A stretch of 40,064 nucleotides of DNA from Acidobacteriota bacterium (GTDB lineage: Bacteria; Acidobacteriota; Terriglobia; Terriglobales; Acidobacteriaceae). Position 1 is the first letter of the stretch. Each line of letters starts with the position of its first letter. The notes beneath the pieces were generated by a model that saw only the letters and a list, made by a program, of their open reading frames with translations, was not told the origin of the DNA and did no database searches. Below, piece after piece: positions 32,136 through 38,784 of the stretch. The stretch covers positions 1-40,064 of the forward strand of contig QIAN01000061.1 in NCBI GenBank assembly GCA_003225005.1, written 5' to 3'. The translations under genes were made by a program, and so were the position numbers.

Positions 32136-32948
32136 ACGATCCTTCTTTCCACTACTTCCATCTCCTGCTTTCGTTTCCAATGTTTTCAACAATTGGGGGA
32201 ATCTGCTTCTCGCTCAAAGCTAACCCTCACGACATGAAAACGTTGCATTCATGCACAGTTCGTGCACGGCGATTTGAAGGTGGACGTCTCCTTAGACATA
32301 GTGCGTACGCGTACTGCTGGACTCTTGCCCACCTCTTCAGAAGTGTCCCACCAAGACGGCCTTTGGCGCAGCTCTTCCAAACCCGGTCGGTGTGCCCCTT
32401 CGTTTCGCGGAAAACGATGCAGACGGGCAAGGAACCCGTCAACGTTTCCCTTCGGCTCGCTGCGCTCGACCTCTGACTGAACCCTTGTCCGTCTGCTGAA
32501 GAACCTCCGCTAGAAAACGAAGGCACACAATCGAAACCCATTAACCAAAAACTTCGATTGACATCACACCGCCTTCTGATGCTGGGAAAACAACAATGAA
32601 GTTAGGCCATTAAGAGCAAAACCTCAAAGACGCAGTCGGATTAGGCGACAGCTCGGCAACGGTCTAGCAGGGTGGAGAACTCCGCTGTCCTTTCAATAGC
32701 TCCTCCCTATGAAATCAGGACGAAGAAGTCTTGGACTCTTCTGGTCTGGCCCGCCTACTCTCAGCCAGAACTTGTATTCATGCCAGAGAAGGAGACGCCA
32801 GGGGATAAGGAAACGCCACTGGCCCATGAGCGTCTTCTATTGCTTCCTGCTCTTCACCAGATTCTCGGCCTGACCATCTGGGTCGAGCGCAAGCTCTGGC
32901 TCGGCGATACCGGACGAAAACTCAAACACCTCGATCAGGAGGTACATA
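32136..32948. other. 800 bp with no convincing gene
   Basis: An ORF at 32672-33001 (109 codons, includes LLLLPALHQILGLTIWVERK) overlaps the next gene by 53 bp and lacks recognisable motifs; it may be real but is doubtful. The remainder shows no tRNA 3' half, no clear hairpins and no protein similarity that I can recognise. Confidence 0.35.
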
Positions 32949-33386
32949 GTGGACAAAATGAACTCTCAGCCGAAATCCTCGAACGCTTCGGTCGGCAGTG
33001 ACCAGCCCATCGAAGTTCCTGACACCAACCAGCCCTCGAACGCGTCGGAAGAACCTCAGCATCACGGTGAACCAGCTCGCCCAGCTCGACCGACTCCCTC
33101 TGCAGACCGCCGAGAATCCGCGCCGCATGACGAGCCGCCCCGTCGCAGTCGTCGCTACTACGACGATTCTGACGACATGATTGAACGGGTTCGGCGAGCC
33201 AGGGAAGCGTTTGACAGAAAAGCCAATGCTTTCCAAGGTCCCGATTGGCCCTATTACGACAAACGCATCATTGTGGGCAAAAAGAAAAAGCCAACAACTG
33301 GCTCCGAGGGCGCGGGGGCAACCCAGGACTCGCAGTCTCAGAATTCCACCTCGGCCTTACCTGCCGAACCCAAGGCCAAAGAGTAA
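32949..33386 (+). CDS. Small disordered charged protein at head of mobilization block
   Basis: 145 aa from GTG 32949, supported by a perfect AGGAGG six bases upstream. The first ~75 residues are rich in Pro, Ser, Glu and Arg and probably disordered. A short ordered part follows (DSDDMIERVRRAREAFDRKA, then GPDWPYYDKRIIVGKKKK). The function is not recognised. It lies just upstream of the relaxase-like gene and is probably cotranscribed with it. Confidence 0.6.
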   Translation: MDKMNSQPKSSNASVGSDQPIEVPDTNQPSNASEEPQHHGEPARPARPTPSADRRESAPHDEPPRRSRRYYDDSDDMIERVRRAREAFDRKANAFQGPDWPYYDKRIIVGKKKKPTTGSEGAGATQDSQSQNSTSALPAEPKAKE

Positions 33387-33442
33387 CCGTGCGACTTGAT
33401 CTCGAATTTCCGGACGAGCGGCGACGGCCAAGGGAGTTGGAA

Positions 33443-34423
33443 ATGCCCGAGGTTCCAGTCTCAGATGGGATTGCGGAAGTACCTCCGCCACCCCCGCCTG
33501 ACGCTCTCGCCCTGCGGATGGAGCGCAACGAGGAACTATCCAACGTGAATTCGTTTCCGAAGATTCCGCTCCCGCCCCACGAACGGAACCAGAAACCTCT
33601 GGACATCGCCGATCCTCCGCGCGTCGAGCACAGGCCGCGGAGGGACCGCGATCCCAGAAATGATGTCGGCATTGGAATTCATCTTAGACCGCAAGAGATC
33701 AAAGCCCTATCTGAAGTCGGGCGCTTCCGAGTTGTGGCGGTGCGCGACCTCGCTGAAACCGTCTATGGCGGCGACCGCAGCGCACTGGCGCGGGACCTCC
33801 GATATCTGGAAGAGAAAGGCATTGTGTCGCTGCGTTCCGTCAACGCACGCCGCGACGGTTCCTGGCGTCAACCGGAACGAATTCAGGTCGTCACGTTGAC
33901 CCGACCCGGTAAGAAGATCGTGCGTCAGGTTGGGAGTTTCCGTCAGGATCAGCAGCTCTACGCAGGCCTGGTAAAGCCGCGAGAGGTGGAGCACGATACC
34001 CAAATCTATCGCGCCTACCTCAAGGAAATGGACAGAATTGATCGTCTCGGCGGCTCGAATCCACGCGTGGTCCTCGACTTTGAAATTAAGCGCAACGTGC
34101 AACGGGCAATCTATGGCCAACGCAAAGCCGACCCTGACCGAGATCTTAACGAGATCAAGGAGCAAGTCGCCAACGAATTCAATCTGCCCTACGTTGACAA
34201 CCAAATCCAGATCCCGGACGCCCGCATCGAGTACGACCTCGATCAGGGCTCGCGCGTTGGTTCATCGGACATCGAGGTAGTGACCGGCGCTTACCGTCCT
34301 GGCCACTTGCGAAGCAAGGCTCAGGCTGGCTTCCGCCTGTATGCCGGAGCCCGTGATCGAGCTCGGCTAGGCAGGGATATCGAAGACGAACACCACATGC
34401 TGCACGAGATTTTGGACCTGTAA
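33443..34423 (+). CDS. Replic_Relax-like (MOBC-type) relaxase or replication-relaxation protein
   Basis: 326 aa from ATG 33443, chosen for AGGGAG six bases upstream; GTG 33389 is an alternative. A Pro-rich head (10-70) precedes a winged helix (about 80-165: LRPQEIKALSEVGRFRVVAV, LARDLRYLEEKGIVSL). The C-terminal domain has EHD (183-185), VLDFEIKR, and IPDARIEYD (P258-D259) followed by SDIEVVTGAYRPGHLRSK (D276, E278, K292). This is a PD-(D/E)XK-like nuclease pattern, as described for the CloDF13 MobC relaxase class. If so, it nicks oriT without a Tyr. Neighbours fit: a coupling-ATPase remnant and a DNA-binding-like protein. Family assignment is by pattern only. The stop overlaps the next ATG (TAATG). 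Confidence 0.6.
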   Translation: MPEVPVSDGIAEVPPPPPPDALALRMERNEELSNVNSFPKIPLPPHERNQKPLDIADPPRVEHRPRRDRDPRNDVGIGIHLRPQEIKALSEVGRFRVVAVRDLAETVYGGDRSALARDLRYLEEKGIVSLRSVNARRDGSWRQPERIQVVTLTRPGKKIVRQVGSFRQDQQLYAGLVKPREVEHDTQIYRAYLKEMDRIDRLGGSNPRVVLDFEIKRNVQRAIYGQRKADPDRDLNEIKEQVANEFNLPYVDNQIQIPDARIEYDLDQGSRVGSSDIEVVTGAYRPGHLRSKAQAGFRLYAGARDRARLGRDIEDEHHMLHEILDL

Positions 34424-35445
34424 TGTCTGCCTTCGACCCCATTCCGGACATTGAGAGACTCGGCTACACCCCGAGAGAAGCCGGCTTCCTGGCGCTCGTC
34501 GCCGCGCACTCCGGCTTCTTCCTCGGTCGCCATTTCAACCATTACCTCCATAAAGAGGATGGAGGGCTGGCCCACAGCTTTCTGACCAAGGCGCTCAAGA
34601 AGAAGCATGTTCAGTTACTCCCATTTGAGCAGCGGCGCTTTGTGTTTCATCTCTGCTCCCGCATTCCCTACCGCCGCTGCGGAATCACAGAGTCTCAGGA
34701 TCGCCGGATCAAGAGTGACCAGACCATCAAAACCATGTTGCTCTCCCTCGACTATGTCCTCGACCACCCCCACCAGCACTTTTTCCGGACAAAGCAGCAG
34801 AAGCTCGAATACTTTCGTGACATGCTTCACATCTCCCTGGATGAGCTGCCGAGTCTTGACCTGGTGACGCCGACGGCCGGCAAGCATCGCTGCTACTTTC
34901 CAGATCGATTTCCGATCTCGATTCTCCGTGAAACCGAAACGCAGCCGCGAAGGATCTCGCTTTGTTTCGTGGATGACGGAATCGAAACCCTCGGCCCATT
35001 GTGGCGTTTTTGGCTCCGTCATGAGCAGGTACTGCGCTCACTTCCTAGCTCGGAGATTGTTTACGTGGCCGAAACCAGGAGGCATTTTCTCGATGCCGGG
35101 CGCATGCTCTCCCGTGCCTTTCCAAGGCTCGATACCACCACTTTCGCGGCGCGCGAGTGCCCGCGCGGCGTTCATCACTTCCTTAGCTACCTCGAAGCTC
35201 GCCAGATTTTCGAGGAAGGTCTTGTCTCACCAACCTTCGAGCAGTCGCGAATTCTTACCGAGGGCAGGAACATTTACAAGACAGTCGCTCACGATCATCT
35301 GTTCGACGCTTGGATGAACGACGACATCACTGACGACGAAATTGTCGCCCGATATTCGGAAAAACGAATCAACATTTCTATTCGTGGTTACGTCATTCGT
35401 GCCGCGTTTCCCCAGAACGGCCCCAAATATCGGGGAGTGGAGTAG
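34423..35445 (+). CDS. Unknown 340-aa protein of the mobilization block
   Basis: Starts within the TAATG overlap with the relaxase-like gene, so it is translationally coupled. The first ~75 residues look like a winged helix (GYTPREAGFLALVAAHSGFF then LAHSFLTKALKKKHVQLL). A middle helix reads IKTMLLSLDYVLDHPHQHFF. A later beta-rich part has RISLCFVDDGIETLGPLWRF and EIVYVAETRRHF. I do not recognise an enzyme motif. The strict coupling suggests it works with the relaxase-like protein, perhaps in DNA recognition. Confidence 0.65.
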   Translation: MSAFDPIPDIERLGYTPREAGFLALVAAHSGFFLGRHFNHYLHKEDGGLAHSFLTKALKKKHVQLLPFEQRRFVFHLCSRIPYRRCGITESQDRRIKSDQTIKTMLLSLDYVLDHPHQHFFRTKQQKLEYFRDMLHISLDELPSLDLVTPTAGKHRCYFPDRFPISILRETETQPRRISLCFVDDGIETLGPLWRFWLRHEQVLRSLPSSEIVYVAETRRHFLDAGRMLSRAFPRLDTTTFAARECPRGVHHFLSYLEARQIFEEGLVSPTFEQSRILTEGRNIYKTVAHDHLFDAWMNDDITDDEIVARYSEKRINISIRGYVIRAAFPQNGPKYRGVE

Positions 35446-35552
35446 TTCGATGATCCTCGTAACATACCTCGGGTCTAGACTCGGTCCTCAGAATCGCAAG
35501 CTACTGCGTCACAAACAGATGCCAACGCAGGTGGGTGAAGAAAAAATCGGCA

Positions 35553-35619
35553 AAAGGGCGGGAACGACCCCGCCTTTGGCTGCCGCGCGGTGCAGGCGCG
35601 CTGGTCGTTCCCGCCCTTT
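35553..35619. repeat. Inverted repeat IR1 (17-bp perfect arms)
   Basis: Arms 35553-35569 and 35603-35619 are perfect reverse complements (GGGCGGGAACGACC core), with a 33-nt GC-rich spacer. It lies between the unknown 340-aa gene and the DNA-binding-like gene, 28 bp left of a second inverted repeat. Candidate oriT, operator or strong terminator. Confidence 0.75.
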
Positions 35620-35646
35620 GGCTACCGAGAACGAACCAAAACAGAT

Positions 35647-35692
35647 ATCGGTATCGGATCAGTTCGAAATATCGACCTGATCCGATACCGAT
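35647..35692. repeat. Inverted repeat IR2 (16-bp perfect arms)
   Basis: Arms 35647-35662 and 35677-35692 are perfect reverse complements (ATCGGTATCGGATCAG) around a 14-nt AT-richer loop. It ends 28 bp before the start of the small DNA-binding-like gene, so binding here could control that gene; with IR1 it forms a twin-hairpin block. Confidence 0.75.
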
Positions 35693-35720
35693 CTTTGACT
35701 AACTTAGGAAGGAGAGGTTC

Positions 35721-36026
35721 ATGGGCAAGTTCAAGATCGAAAAGGGCGCAAGTCGTATTGGTCGTGTGAAGCTCCAGGCAACAATCGAGGAGTCAATTGC
35801 TGCAGACTTATCCCTCATGTGTGACTGGTCGAACAACGACAAGAATTACGTTGTTAACGAACTTCTGCGCTTCGCAGTGTCGGAGGACAAGGAGTTTCAG
35901 GCCTACAAACAGTCTCTTGCTTCCTTGGGTCCGGAACTAAAGGAGGCTGTGGCCACTCCTTCGGCAGGATCGCGGAGTATATGCCAGACGACCACGACAC
36001 AGCCGAATTCTGGCGGGCGCCTGTAG
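35721..36026 (+). CDS. Small DNA-binding-like (ribbon-helix-helix type?) accessory protein
   Basis: 101 aa with a strong ribosome binding site (GGAAGGAGAGG). VKLQATIEESIAADLSLMCDW followed by NYVVNELLRFAVSEDKEFQA fits a beta-strand, helix, helix plan like Arc/MetJ or mobilization accessory proteins. The last ~30 residues are low complexity. It sits right after two perfect inverted repeats, a likely binding site. It ends 11 bp before the coupling-ATPase remnant. The fold is inferred, not proven. Confidence 0.55.
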   Translation: MGKFKIEKGASRIGRVKLQATIEESIAADLSLMCDWSNNDKNYVVNELLRFAVSEDKEFQAYKQSLASLGPELKEAVATPSAGSRSICQTTTTQPNSGGRL

Positions 36027-36036
36027 GAGTCGGAGC

Positions 36037-37091
36037 ATGGTTCGCGGTCTAAAATCAAGGTTGAAAATGCTTTTAAGAGTTTTCGTCCGAAATCGGTTTC
36101 TGCTTTCGGTAGGACTGAGTGTCGCCACCGGCTTGGCTGTCAGATCTGTGTTCCAGATCCCGGATAGCGATCCGCTGCTGCGGTATGCGGCGTTTGAACG
36201 CCCGGCAATATACCAGGCTTTCATCGTCAGCTATGCGCTGTTTGGGTTCACGACTCCTTATTGTTTTGCTTTCGATGTGTCTCTCTCTTCTCTACATCCA
36301 TTTTTATGAAGAGCAGATCCAGCGGGCTGCCGGTGTGACACCGCCCTATCCCAAACCTGACTTCCGAAAAGACCTGTTCCTGATCCTGGGTGAACTGCAT
36401 GAGCAAGTCGAACCCGTTCCTGCCGCGCGTCCGAAATGGCTCAACGTTCCCGAGCGCGGTCTCTATACCGGCATTGCCGTGTTGGGCGCTATTGGTTCTG
36501 GCAAAACTCGAGGGCTGAGCCTCCCCGCGATGAGACAACTATTCGGATATGAAGCTCAAGATTCGGCGAAAAAACTGTCCGGTATCGTTCTCGAAGTTAA
36601 AGGAGATCTCTGCCGACACCTGCGGCGAATCTTGAAGGAGTTTAGGCGCGAAGAGGACTACATCGATGTCAGCCTCGATTCGGACATTCGCTACAACCCG
36701 CTGAACAACAACCTTGATCCATACGCACAGGCCTTCAATATCGCTTCGATCATCACGTCCATCTGGGGCAAGGGAAAAGAACCGTTCTGGCAACAGTCCT
36801 ACACGGATCTGGTTCGATACGTCATCGTCCTCCACCGAATTCAATCGGCATACGTAACGCTGGTGCACATCTTCCGTACCGTGATCTCTTCGGGGCAGTT
36901 GGAAAAGCTGCTAGGGGAAACGAGTCTCCGCTTTAGCGGAAGCGCTTACCTCGCAGTTTCCCAAGAAGACTTTGCGGCCTACAGCAAGCAGCTGATGCAG
37001 TTCGGATTCTCGCGGGACGGCACTTCGGATCGATATATAGCTGAACACTCCCAGCAGCTAGAAGCGTTTTTGGAGGAAGACACCCACATCA
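36037..37091 (+). pseudogene. VirD4/TraG-type coupling ATPase, frameshifted and truncated
   Basis: Starts at ATG 36037 (GGAG upstream). Two membrane helices come first (NRFLLSVGLSVATGLAV and AFIVSYALFGFTTPYCF). A one-base insertion near 36270 shifts the frame; the other frame continues with MCLSLLYIHFYEEQIQRA, then YTGIAVLGAIGSGKTRGLSL (Walker A), GIVLEVKGDL and YNPLNNNLDPYAQAFNIAS. The plan of TM pair plus Walker ATPase, with PFWQQSYTDLVRYVI, matches type IV coupling proteins. Homology stops near 37090, before Walker B, where IS110 sequence begins. About half the usual 600-700 residues are lost, so the element cannot transfer itself with this copy. Confidence 0.75.
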
Positions 37092-37245
37092 GTGCGATGG
37101 TCTATTCACCGAAGCGGTTATCTGACGATCAGCAAAGATCTCACTCGGGTAATGAATCGAGTGAAGGCTCTGTATCGCAGTTGGGGAATTTTGTGTGGGG
37201 GGCAGCAAGTCTACGCCCCGCGTCATCGCACAGAGTGGTTGAACA
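37092..37245 (+). mobile_element. IS110-family transposase internal fragment
   Basis: One frame reads GYLTISKDLTRVMNRVKALY, then RSWGILCGGQQVYAPRHR and TEWLNKI, a middle stretch of IS110-family transposases (DEDD recombinases). Both sides are cut: coupling-ATPase sequence ends at about 37091 and heme-peroxidase sequence begins by 37249. The N-terminal part that would precede it lies on the opposite strand at 39738-40064. Confidence 0.75.
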
Positions 37246-37248
37246 AGA

Positions 37249-38175
37249 TTGGAGCGCAACGAGCAAGGGCTCGCTCTGGTTGGGGACGCACGCAATGATA
37301 CTCACCTGTTCATTTCTCAATTGCACTTGGCATTCCTGCATTTTCACAACCGCGTCGTTGACGCAGTACGGCAGAAGGGTGCAGTGGCAGCCCAAGTCTT
37401 CGACCACAGTGCGCAGCTCGTTCGTTGGCATTATCAGTGGGTCGTGCTGCACGAATTCCTCCCACTCACCGTCGGCGATGACCTTGTCTCCGAGTTGCTG
37501 CAGTCGGGCCCGAAAATTTGCCGATTCGAGAACCGGCCATTCATTCCGGTTGAATTCTCCGACGGGGCTTACCGCTTTGGACACGCTCAGGTTCGGAGCA
37601 AGTACGACGTAAACGACCGCGTGCGCGACGTGCCGTTATTCCCCGATCTTGTCGGCATCTGCCCGGTCACGCCGGAGCGTCAGGTCGATTGGAAGCGCAT
37701 GTTCCGGTTTAAGGATGGTGTTCCGCCGCAGGCCAGCCGCCGGATCGGCCCACTGCTGGTACCGGCATTGATGAAACTTCCCGAAGCCCTGGTCGGCCAT
37801 GCGGAGAGGCCAGAATTCAGCTCGCTTGCATCGCGCGACCTGTATCGCGGCCACGCGGTCGAGATCCCGTGCGGCGAAGCTGTCGGCCGCGCCATGGGAA
37901 TTGAACCGTGTACGGTCGCAGAACTGAAGACCGAAGACTCGAAATTGTCTGGCGGAACACCACTCTGGCTTTACGTGCTCGCGGAAGCCGAAGCTCAGCA
38001 CAACGGAGAATATCTAGGCGAGGTCGGGGGAAGGATCGTAGCAGAAGTGATCTTCGAATTGCTGCGGCACGATCCGGATTCGATTTTGAACCAGCGAGAC
38101 TGGGCGCCGGAGCTCGCGGACTCGCCGGGCAAGTTTGGAATTGCTGATCTGCTCAAGTTCGCCGGCGTGGCTTAA
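37249..38175 (+). pseudogene. Animal-type heme peroxidase, N-terminal half missing
   Basis: The frame from 37249 to the stop at 38175 reads LVGDARNDTHLFISQLHLAF, then FHNRVVDAVRQ, and AYRFGHAQVRSKYDVND with the proximal heme His, then PLFPDLVG and LYRGHAVEIPCGEAVGRAMG. This is the C-terminal ~300 aa of bacterial peroxidases of the myeloperoxidase/cyclooxygenase superfamily (usually 500-600 aa). The distal part with Asp-His (FIDHD-type motif) is gone. The first codon is TTG with no start signal. The 5' side joins IS110 sequence directly. The remaining frame is undamaged, which suggests recent truncation. Confidence 0.85.
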
Positions 38176-38205: not shown

Positions 38206-38784
38206 ATGCACAAAGGACGTTTGGAGGCATTCAGCGACGGAGTCCTGGCAATCTTGATCACGATCATGGTTCTGGAGCTGCACGTGCCCAAGGGACAGGA
38301 CCTCAGCGACCTTCTGCAGGCGCTGCCTCTGATCGCCGTTTACGCGCTCAGCTTCATCTTCCTGGCAATTTATTGGAACAACCATCACCACATGTTCCAG
38401 GCGGCTCAAAGAGTCAGCGGTGGCGTCCTTTGGTCCAACGCACACCTGCTGTTTTGGCTGTCCTTGGTACCGTTCACGACCGCGTGGATGGCTCAGCACG
38501 CCTCGGCCCCGTGGCCAGTGGCCGCCTACGGCATCAATCTGCTGCTGTGCGCGATTGCTTACTACGTTCTTTCGCATCGCTTGATCGCGCATCATGGGAA
38601 GGAGTCGCCACTCGCCATTGCCTTCGGCCGGGATCGCAAGGGGAAAATCTCGCTGCTCATCTATATTGTTTCGATTCCCCTGGCCTTTTATCGTCCGGCC
38701 CTGTCGTATGCCTGCTTCATTGCCGTGGCTATCATCTGGCTGGTGCCTGACCGCCGGATCGAGCGGGCTTTAAGGATCGAATAA
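38206..38784 (+). CDS. TMEM175-family (DUF1211) potassium channel-like membrane protein
   Basis: 192 aa with six predicted helices. RLEAFSDGVLAILITIMVLE carries the FSDGVxAI motif of the family in helix 1; YWNNHHHMFQ and WSNAHLLFWLSLVPF are also typical. Bacterial members form tetrameric K+ leak channels in the inner membrane. Ribosome binding site TAAGGAG. It lies 30 bp after the peroxidase remnant and seems intact. Confidence 0.9.
   Translation: MHKGRLEAFSDGVLAILITIMVLELHVPKGQDLSDLLQALPLIAVYALSFIFLAIYWNNHHHMFQAAQRVSGGVLWSNAHLLFWLSLVPFTTAWMAQHASAPWPVAAYGINLLLCAIAYYVLSHRLIAHHGKESPLAIAFGRDRKGKISLLIYIVSIPLAFYRPALSYACFIAVAIIWLVPDRRIERALRIE

Follow-up and report, generated by a model that had tools for sequence, protein, structure and literature searches.

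The block at 32858-37120 of the stretch analysed here, the entire 40,064 bp contig C376 (the window) of a 7.9 Mb Acidobacteriota genome in 550 contigs, is best explained as a degraded copy of the DNA-processing, or mobilization (MOB), module of Acidobacteriota conjugative and mobile elements, and we put the probability of this whole explanation, including the mechanism proposed below, at about 0.6. The argument centres on relax, a candidate relaxase, on p340, a protein encoded directly behind it, and on HP, a palindrome 3' of p340, which is a candidate origin of transfer (oriT) with p340 as its candidate adapter. An earlier note on this DNA had described a compact mobilization system at 32949-37091. 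The block is real but slightly larger, because it takes in the tail of a small gene, p109, and runs to the end of coupling-ATPase homology, and its mobilization-type character stands. As the left end is the tail of a cut gene and the right end a broken coupling-ATPase gene, we rejected a complete mobilization system and regard the window copy as a relic; it contains no VirB genes, its coupling ATPase is a pseudogene and its first gene is cut. Against a close relative (L002), dN/dS was 0.13 over 268 codons of relax; two parts of p340 gave values of 0.09 and 0.18, and the small gene orf145 one of 0.41. Relax and p340 were therefore under purifying selection. The three central features are:

33389..34423, + strand: relax, a winged helix-turn-helix (wHTH) plus PD..E..K protein; distant relative of Replic_Relax/MOBC and candidate relaxase
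34423..35445, + strand: p340, 340 aa; Replic_Relax-like without the conserved catalytic residues, candidate origin-binding partner
35546..35626, unstranded: HP, arms 35550-35569/35603-35622 (20 nt, 95% complementary); candidate oriT

A candidate relaxase distantly related to MOBC

The relax gene starts at the GTG at 33389, where its homologues begin MRxD..P, and the ATG at 33443 lies 18 residues later. Residue numbers therefore shift by 18, and P258-D259, D276, E278 and K292, which the earlier note had picked out in a winged-helix/nuclease-like open reading frame (ORF) that proves to be real, become P276-D277, D294, E296 and K310. The relax alignment (A3) holds 39 of 46 listed sequences, with the window sequence counted in addition, and the reference lists for relax and p340 exclude L002, L121, L123, L124 and ORFs of <240 aa. 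Here P276, D277, E296 and H202 were invariant (39/39), D294 was D in 32 and N in 7, and K310 was K in 29/39, with all ten exceptions coming from loci that lack type IV secretion system (T4SS) genes. The proteins in this alignment tend to carry a short conserved C-terminal tip (...ILxL, ...EEFL, ...EELW), which may serve as a signal for docking or export; the linker before it varies and is often rich in glycine.

Searches of Pfam and NCBIfam gave weak, unrelated matches only, and the Replic_Relax profile PF13814 matched 0/15 relax homologues at E-values up to 10. However, comparison of relax with 14 PF13814-matching proteins using hhalign gave a score of 54.5 (probability 91.8) over a region reaching from the winged helix to the conserved H, against 19.4 at most for the controls, counted as 11 unrelated families, and for reversed profiles. 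When a global alignment was forced, the H, PD, E and K of relax were set on the H, PD, E and K of Replic_Relax. Furthermore, one protein (G138:C13) was matched by both PF13814 and the relax profile, and comparison of relax with PDB profiles returned a MarR-type wHTH at E 0.02 and no other PDB sequence relative. On profile alignment, relax is thus a distant relative of Replic_Relax (MOBC) that lies outside the family as scored by Pfam, which is how far the MOBC-like label of the earlier note can be kept; no unrelated non-nuclease family emerged, the best match being Replic_Relax, above all 11 controls. By analogy, relax may work like a MOBC relaxase: a relationship of these enzymes to restriction endonucleases of the PD-(D/E)XK type has been described, as has an N-terminal winged helix in TraX of pAD1 (PMC12857230, in excerpt).

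p340 resembles Replic_Relax without the catalytic E and K

As reported previously, p340 overlaps its upstream gene, its start at 34423 sharing one base with the TAA of relax. Pfam, NCBIfam and PHROGs yielded weak, unrelated matches only, PF13814 matched 0/18 p340 homologues (E up to 10), and PDB profiles provided no sequence relative. The protein had been called uncharacterised, but it does have relatives, and p340 too resembles Replic_Relax: against the same 14-protein set, hhalign aligned 202 colinear columns with a score of 38.2 (probability 45, P 2e-4 for one comparison), with the 11 control families scoring 18.3 at most, and the N-terminal part appeared wHTH-like. For relax and p340 taken together, no control exceeded 20.5. 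The p340 alignment (A4) contains 44 of 49 listed sequences, again with the window sequence counted in addition. At the positions aligned to the Replic_Relax residues, P and D occurred jointly in 19/44, while E was found in 0/44 (Y, F or C there) and K in 0/44, and the most fitting reading of p340 is a relative of the relaxase fold that has lost catalysis.

The HP palindrome is conserved behind p340

The twin hairpins that the earlier note had named only in passing are present (35550-35569/35603-35622 and 35642-35667/35672-35697), and the first of them, HP, is the most informative part of this locus. Its core in the window reads GAACGACC...GGTCGTTC and scored 64.6 bits against our covariance model R1, the window copy being within the training set. 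The twin-palindrome region folds at a z of -9.4, equalled by 0/200 shuffles, and the core GARCGACC...GGTCGYTC recurs 3' of p340 in loci resembling integrative and conjugative elements (ICE-like), in those resembling integrative mobilizable elements (IME-like) and in relax-less loci. Using a simple filter, we detected HP <=900 bp downstream of p340 in 41/49 loci, with 25/1,354 other 900-bp windows and 9/1,000 shuffles passing as controls. A search with R1 (94 sources, 1.4 Mb, E up to 0.5) identified 47 places, 45 of them no more than 400 bp downstream of p340, corresponding to 44/49 loci plus L002; in L098 and L102, HP is about 4 kb from p340. No copy was found by R1 in L034 (contig end), L103 or L110, nor in L040-L059, PF13814 loci with a length of only 2-4 kb.

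Among 37 aligned HP copies, 92.1% of cells pair, compared with 47.7% at most in slid controls; both sides have changed in 13/20 stem pairs, and G-U occupies 16/675 paired cells. This alignment (A8) includes L022, L030 and L111, which are below the filter, and leaves out L094, L096 and L125-L129, which passed it. The filter requires paired arms, which biases the pair counts towards pairing, and as most copies were chosen in this way, the tests of position and presence weigh more. Two other assignments were tried and rejected: an intrinsic terminator (no terminator-like site) and an Rfam family (none above its cut-off). A GGGTCA motif upstream of HP, present in 11/20, is too weak to be named a nic site.

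Further inverted repeats occur near HP. Several integrase-bearing loci contain, 0.1-0.4 kb from HP, a second repeat whose core is often of the GTCAAGG...CCTTGAC type (listed for L101, L105, L108, L109, L112, L113, L164, L169, L174, L194, L196 and L198), possibly an integrase site or a second transfer site. Another recurring repeat, with arms GGGGGAACAC...GTGTTCCCCC, is seen in L097, L192, L195, L196 and L197.

The module recurs in two types of element

We found p340 in 12/100 sampled genomes of the same family, window genome included, and the order p109-(orf145)-relax-p340-rhh-virD4 recurs around p340 matches, with relax beside p340 in 15/17 non-window p340 loci (2 partial or broken) and not in L036 or L037. 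Full-length VirD4 and VirB genes flank many of these relatives, and the conserved linkage to coupling ATPases anticipated for Acidobacteriota is therefore borne out. The L023 cluster, for example, runs from virB3-B4-B9-B10-B6-B8 through to virD4-virB11 with the module within; its VirB/VirD4 names are backed by Pfam or NCBIfam, and the labels 'virB5' and 'rhh' are not. By gene content, the intact relatives within VirB/VirD4/VirB11 clusters are ICE-like, whereas the window itself keeps only the VirD4 pseudogene. In L023 (7249-7902) and L024 (4861-6483, oriented), DNA-methyltransferase-like ORFs, recognised by eye, lie between virB8 and p109.

The relax profile matched 27/347 genomes of the phylum, and in the 35 loci fetched with it, p340 was in the same element in 32 and directly adjacent in 26. 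In five loci of family f47, relax precedes p109 and virB3, and p340 sits between virB8 and virD4; relax and p340 are also apart in L110, and in L099 p340 is at the contig edge. The fetched stretches of L121, L123 (a PF13814 protein) and L124 contained no p340. Outside the family of the window, 14 relax+p340 loci had no T4SS gene in the fetched stretch, and in 10 of them a serine or tyrosine recombinase lies 0.5-2.6 kb from p340, compared with a recombinase in the fetched stretch of 2/31 T4SS-bearing loci (L035 and the degraded L036). Two of these recombinases, in L107 and L109, are confirmed by Pfam (one serine, one tyrosine). Likewise, VirD4 was not found in the fetched stretches of these compact loci, which look like integrative mobilizable elements. 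Searching with p340 alone revealed 20 further loci, and L164, L174 and L175 read p340-HP-tyrosine integrase. No relatives turned up in viral contigs, which were scanned with the profiles of relax and p340 and with one IME-type p340; tblastn gave no match in plasmids with the window relax and p340, one IME-type p340, or one f47 relax and one f47 p340, and none in phages with the window p340.

We also examined 20 genomes with p340 for other relaxases. PF03432 matched in 7, PF08751 in 9, PF03389 in 3 and PF07514 in 3 (one above cut-off), and by coordinates no such match was inside any p340 locus of these 20 genomes, whose draft contigs may hide neighbours; the nearest, in G201:C3, is about 21 kb from relax. 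Eight of the 20 had no PF03432, PF08751 or PF03389 match. The PF01076 profile was silent on p340 genomes and equally silent on its control, and the CloDF13 record, in which no protein is annotated as MobC, was not used.

HP co-occurs with p340 and is also found alone

Among the 347 phylum genomes, p340 was detected in 31, HP in 33 and both in 30; 313/316 genomes without p340 were also without HP, the exceptions being G168, G181 and G376. G201 has p340 but no HP at the genome-search threshold, although the locus-level search did detect its copy. Of the 31 p340 genomes, 14 contributed no copy to R1 (G254, a near-copy of a training genome, uncounted), and HP was present in 13 of these 14. In 60 genomes of the same family, the 7 with HP were identical to the 7 with p340; all 7 are in R1 training, and the new information is therefore the 53 blanks. 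The 20 loci found via p340 alone had HP <=330 bp downstream in 11 (one weak, E 0.03) and 4.3 kb away in one. In f47 loci HP stays with p340 though relax has moved away, and the association of HP is thus tighter with p340 than with relax.

Of the 19 solo HP loci that were fetched, nine have a recombinase within about 6 kb, and in L192, L193, L196 and L202 a recombinase of the L107 serine family is 0.6-0.8 kb from HP. As 262 kb of control DNA gave 5 recombinase matches, this enrichment is suggestive only. The window genome itself contains further copies on C420 (two), C116, C405 (two) and C181; those on C405 adjoin a tyrosine-integrase-like ORF and that on C181 a Pfam-confirmed serine recombinase.

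Other genes of the block and its surroundings

The remaining features of the block are:

32858..33001, + strand: p109 tail, from a small membrane-protein-like gene; the last 47 residues are conserved, whereas the 5' portion shows no homology (cut)
32949..33386, + strand: orf145, a small variable protein that occurs in ICE-like relatives of the same family
35642..35697, unstranded: second palindrome between HP and 'rhh', arms 35642-35667/35672-35697 (26 nt, 88% complementary)
35721..36026, + strand: 'rhh', a small conserved protein named from its appearance
36037..37120, + strand: VirD4-like coupling ATPase pseudogene, with a frame change and then truncation

Matches to p109 were obtained by tblastn in 14 of the searched loci, in most of them with conservation limited to query residues about 63-109, and its membrane character is a reading of the sequence of intact homologues. 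Iterated HMM searches found orf145 and 'rhh' in 12/19 loci each. The latter had been described as a small DNA-binding-like protein; its ORF is indeed conserved in relatives, but it has no Pfam or NCBIfam match, and no library match backs a DNA-binding or ribbon-helix-helix (RHH) fold. The second palindrome is possibly an operator. The ATPase remnant is confirmed as a pseudogene, with an N-terminal ORF at 36037-36309 followed by a frame change, and homology that stops near 37120. It is 55-61% identical over 257-285 residues to the ATPases of 11 loci and 44.5% identical to that of L035, and its intact homologue in L023 matches T4SS-DNA_transf and TraG-D_C.

Beyond 37120 the ATPase frame runs into a haem-peroxidase gene (PF03098). 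This animal-type peroxidase is a fragment (37249-38175) lying directly after the broken ATPase, its start apparently lost at the junction. An acyltransferase gene (PF01757, 31420-31905) retains only its N-terminal part, with an early stop, and a fragment of an IS110-type transposase (PF01548, 39620-40063, - strand) runs off the contig end, so that this end of the contig looks decayed. A potassium channel gene of TMEM175 type (PF06736) lies at 38206-38784.

Proposed mechanism and alternative explanations

In the mechanism that we propose, p340, with a Replic_Relax fold lacking the active site, would bind HP just 3' of its own gene, and HP-bound p340 would recruit relax, which as a MOBC-like metal-dependent nuclease would nick at or near HP. 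The small 'rhh' protein would assist, and VirD4 would pass the strand to the T4SS. Elements without a T4SS would use the channel of a helper, and those without relax would also borrow relax in trans. This would be a split relaxosome, in which relax cuts, the dead Replic_Relax-like p340 reads the origin and HP is a portable oriT read through p340, a design that we advance tentatively and would not yet bet on.

Several observations weigh against this mechanism. The relax match to Replic_Relax is carried mainly by the wHTH, and as winged helices are common, that match alone is unspecific; K310 is replaced in 10/39 homologues. The p340 match is weaker still (probability only 45), and direct hhalign comparison of relax with p340 gave no match, so their kinship goes through Replic_Relax only. 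The compensatory changes in HP could also stem from symmetric protein binding to duplex DNA. HP tracks p340 and not relax: at E 1e-3 the 39-sequence profile detected no relax in any of the 20 further p340 loci, and 8 of the 20 are also without HP (one ends at a contig edge). In G121, G383 and G406, HP and p340 matches share no contig. The main weakness of the oriT reading is that some HP copies, among them the four loci of G376 and those of G168 and G181, have none of the searched element genes, and these solo copies look like dispersed repeats.

The most probable of the alternatives, though still unlikely, is that HP is a regulatory site, acting as an operator or as an mRNA structure on p340 or on the virD4-virB11 genes that follow, with p340 mainly a transcription factor; relax may then still be a relaxase, with oriT elsewhere. 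The position of HP between p340 and virD4 in ICE-like loci, the wHTH-like N-terminal part of p340 and the persistence of HP beside p340 where relax has moved would all fit, yet HP is retained in compact loci without a downstream virD4 and alone beside integrases, has neither a terminator-like site nor an Rfam family over its cut-off, and has few G-U pairs for an RNA stem. Rather improbable is a replication module, in which relax and p340 as initiator and HP as origin would start replication of an excised circle and not transfer. The name Replic_Relax (replication-relaxation) and the place of the module beside an integrase in compact loci speak for it, against which stand the VirD4/VirB genes that invariably adjoin it in ICE-like loci and the treatment of PF13814 as the MobC relaxase family (PMC5357655, in excerpt); the two roles could also coexist in one module.

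That HP is a dispersed, REP-like repeat lying near p340 by chance seems very unlikely. The solo copies in G376, G168 and G181 and the several in the window genome would suit such a repeat, but not its occurrence on the same side of p340 within 400 bp in 44/49 loci, the low pass rate of control windows even with the looser filter, or the absence of an HP match from nearly all p340-less genomes; the other copies are linked to p340 or lie close to integrases. To the idea that the T4SS serves protein export, with relax as an unrelated nuclease, we give the slimmest chance: it is common for a T4SS to have no known relaxase, and a role in exporting proteins is often argued for such systems (PMC3158045, in excerpt), but relax resembles a relaxase family, and the relax/p340 pair also occurs beside integrases without any T4SS gene.

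Implications and comparison with known systems

If the split relaxosome is true, three tiers of element would follow: relax, p340 and HP with a T4SS; relax, p340 and HP with an integrase; and hitchers (p340 and HP, or HP alone) with an integrase. It would also mean a relaxase family missed by curated profiles, and some of the 'MOBless' T4SSs of Acidobacteriota would thereby be accounted for. The relax and p340 alignments and the HP covariance model can be used for searching other genomes and for direct testing. The open-licence literature matches listed include no paper on the relax/p340 pair or the HP palindrome, and to our knowledge a dead relaxase relative as origin reader is a new relaxosome design. 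T4SSs without a nearby relaxase have been termed MOBless and explained by unknown relaxases or by protein export; in the excerpted source such clusters are an open question, on which a relaxase-like pair too divergent for the searched libraries bears (PMC3158045).

The closest known system is MOBC/Replic_Relax (PF13814; TraX of pAD1, MobC of CloDF13). Both it and relax have an N-terminal wHTH followed by H, PD, E and K in that order, with an E-to-K spacing of 14 in each, and both are linked to VirD4 in conjugative elements. Unlike MOBC, relax scores no PF13814 match, ends soon after the K and is adjoined by the gene for a second, catalytically degenerate relative, p340. The origin side also differs, being here a palindrome with arms of about 20 nt, whereas TraX of pAD1 reportedly binds five direct repeats away from nic (PMC12857230, in excerpt). 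RHH auxiliary proteins of relaxosomes are described in the same excerpt, and the small conserved 'rhh' is likewise encoded beside the candidate oriT, though unlike them it has no RHH family match. Streptococcal IMEs with MobC (PF13814) and a serine integrase share the compact relaxase-integrase layout seen here, but bring their own VirD4, where the compact loci bring p340 and HP with no VirD4 in the fetched stretch (PMC5357655, in excerpt). Finally, elements carrying only an oriT are known as iOriT, and HP alone near an integrase, as a candidate oriT only, resembles such hitchers (PMC11389934, in excerpt).

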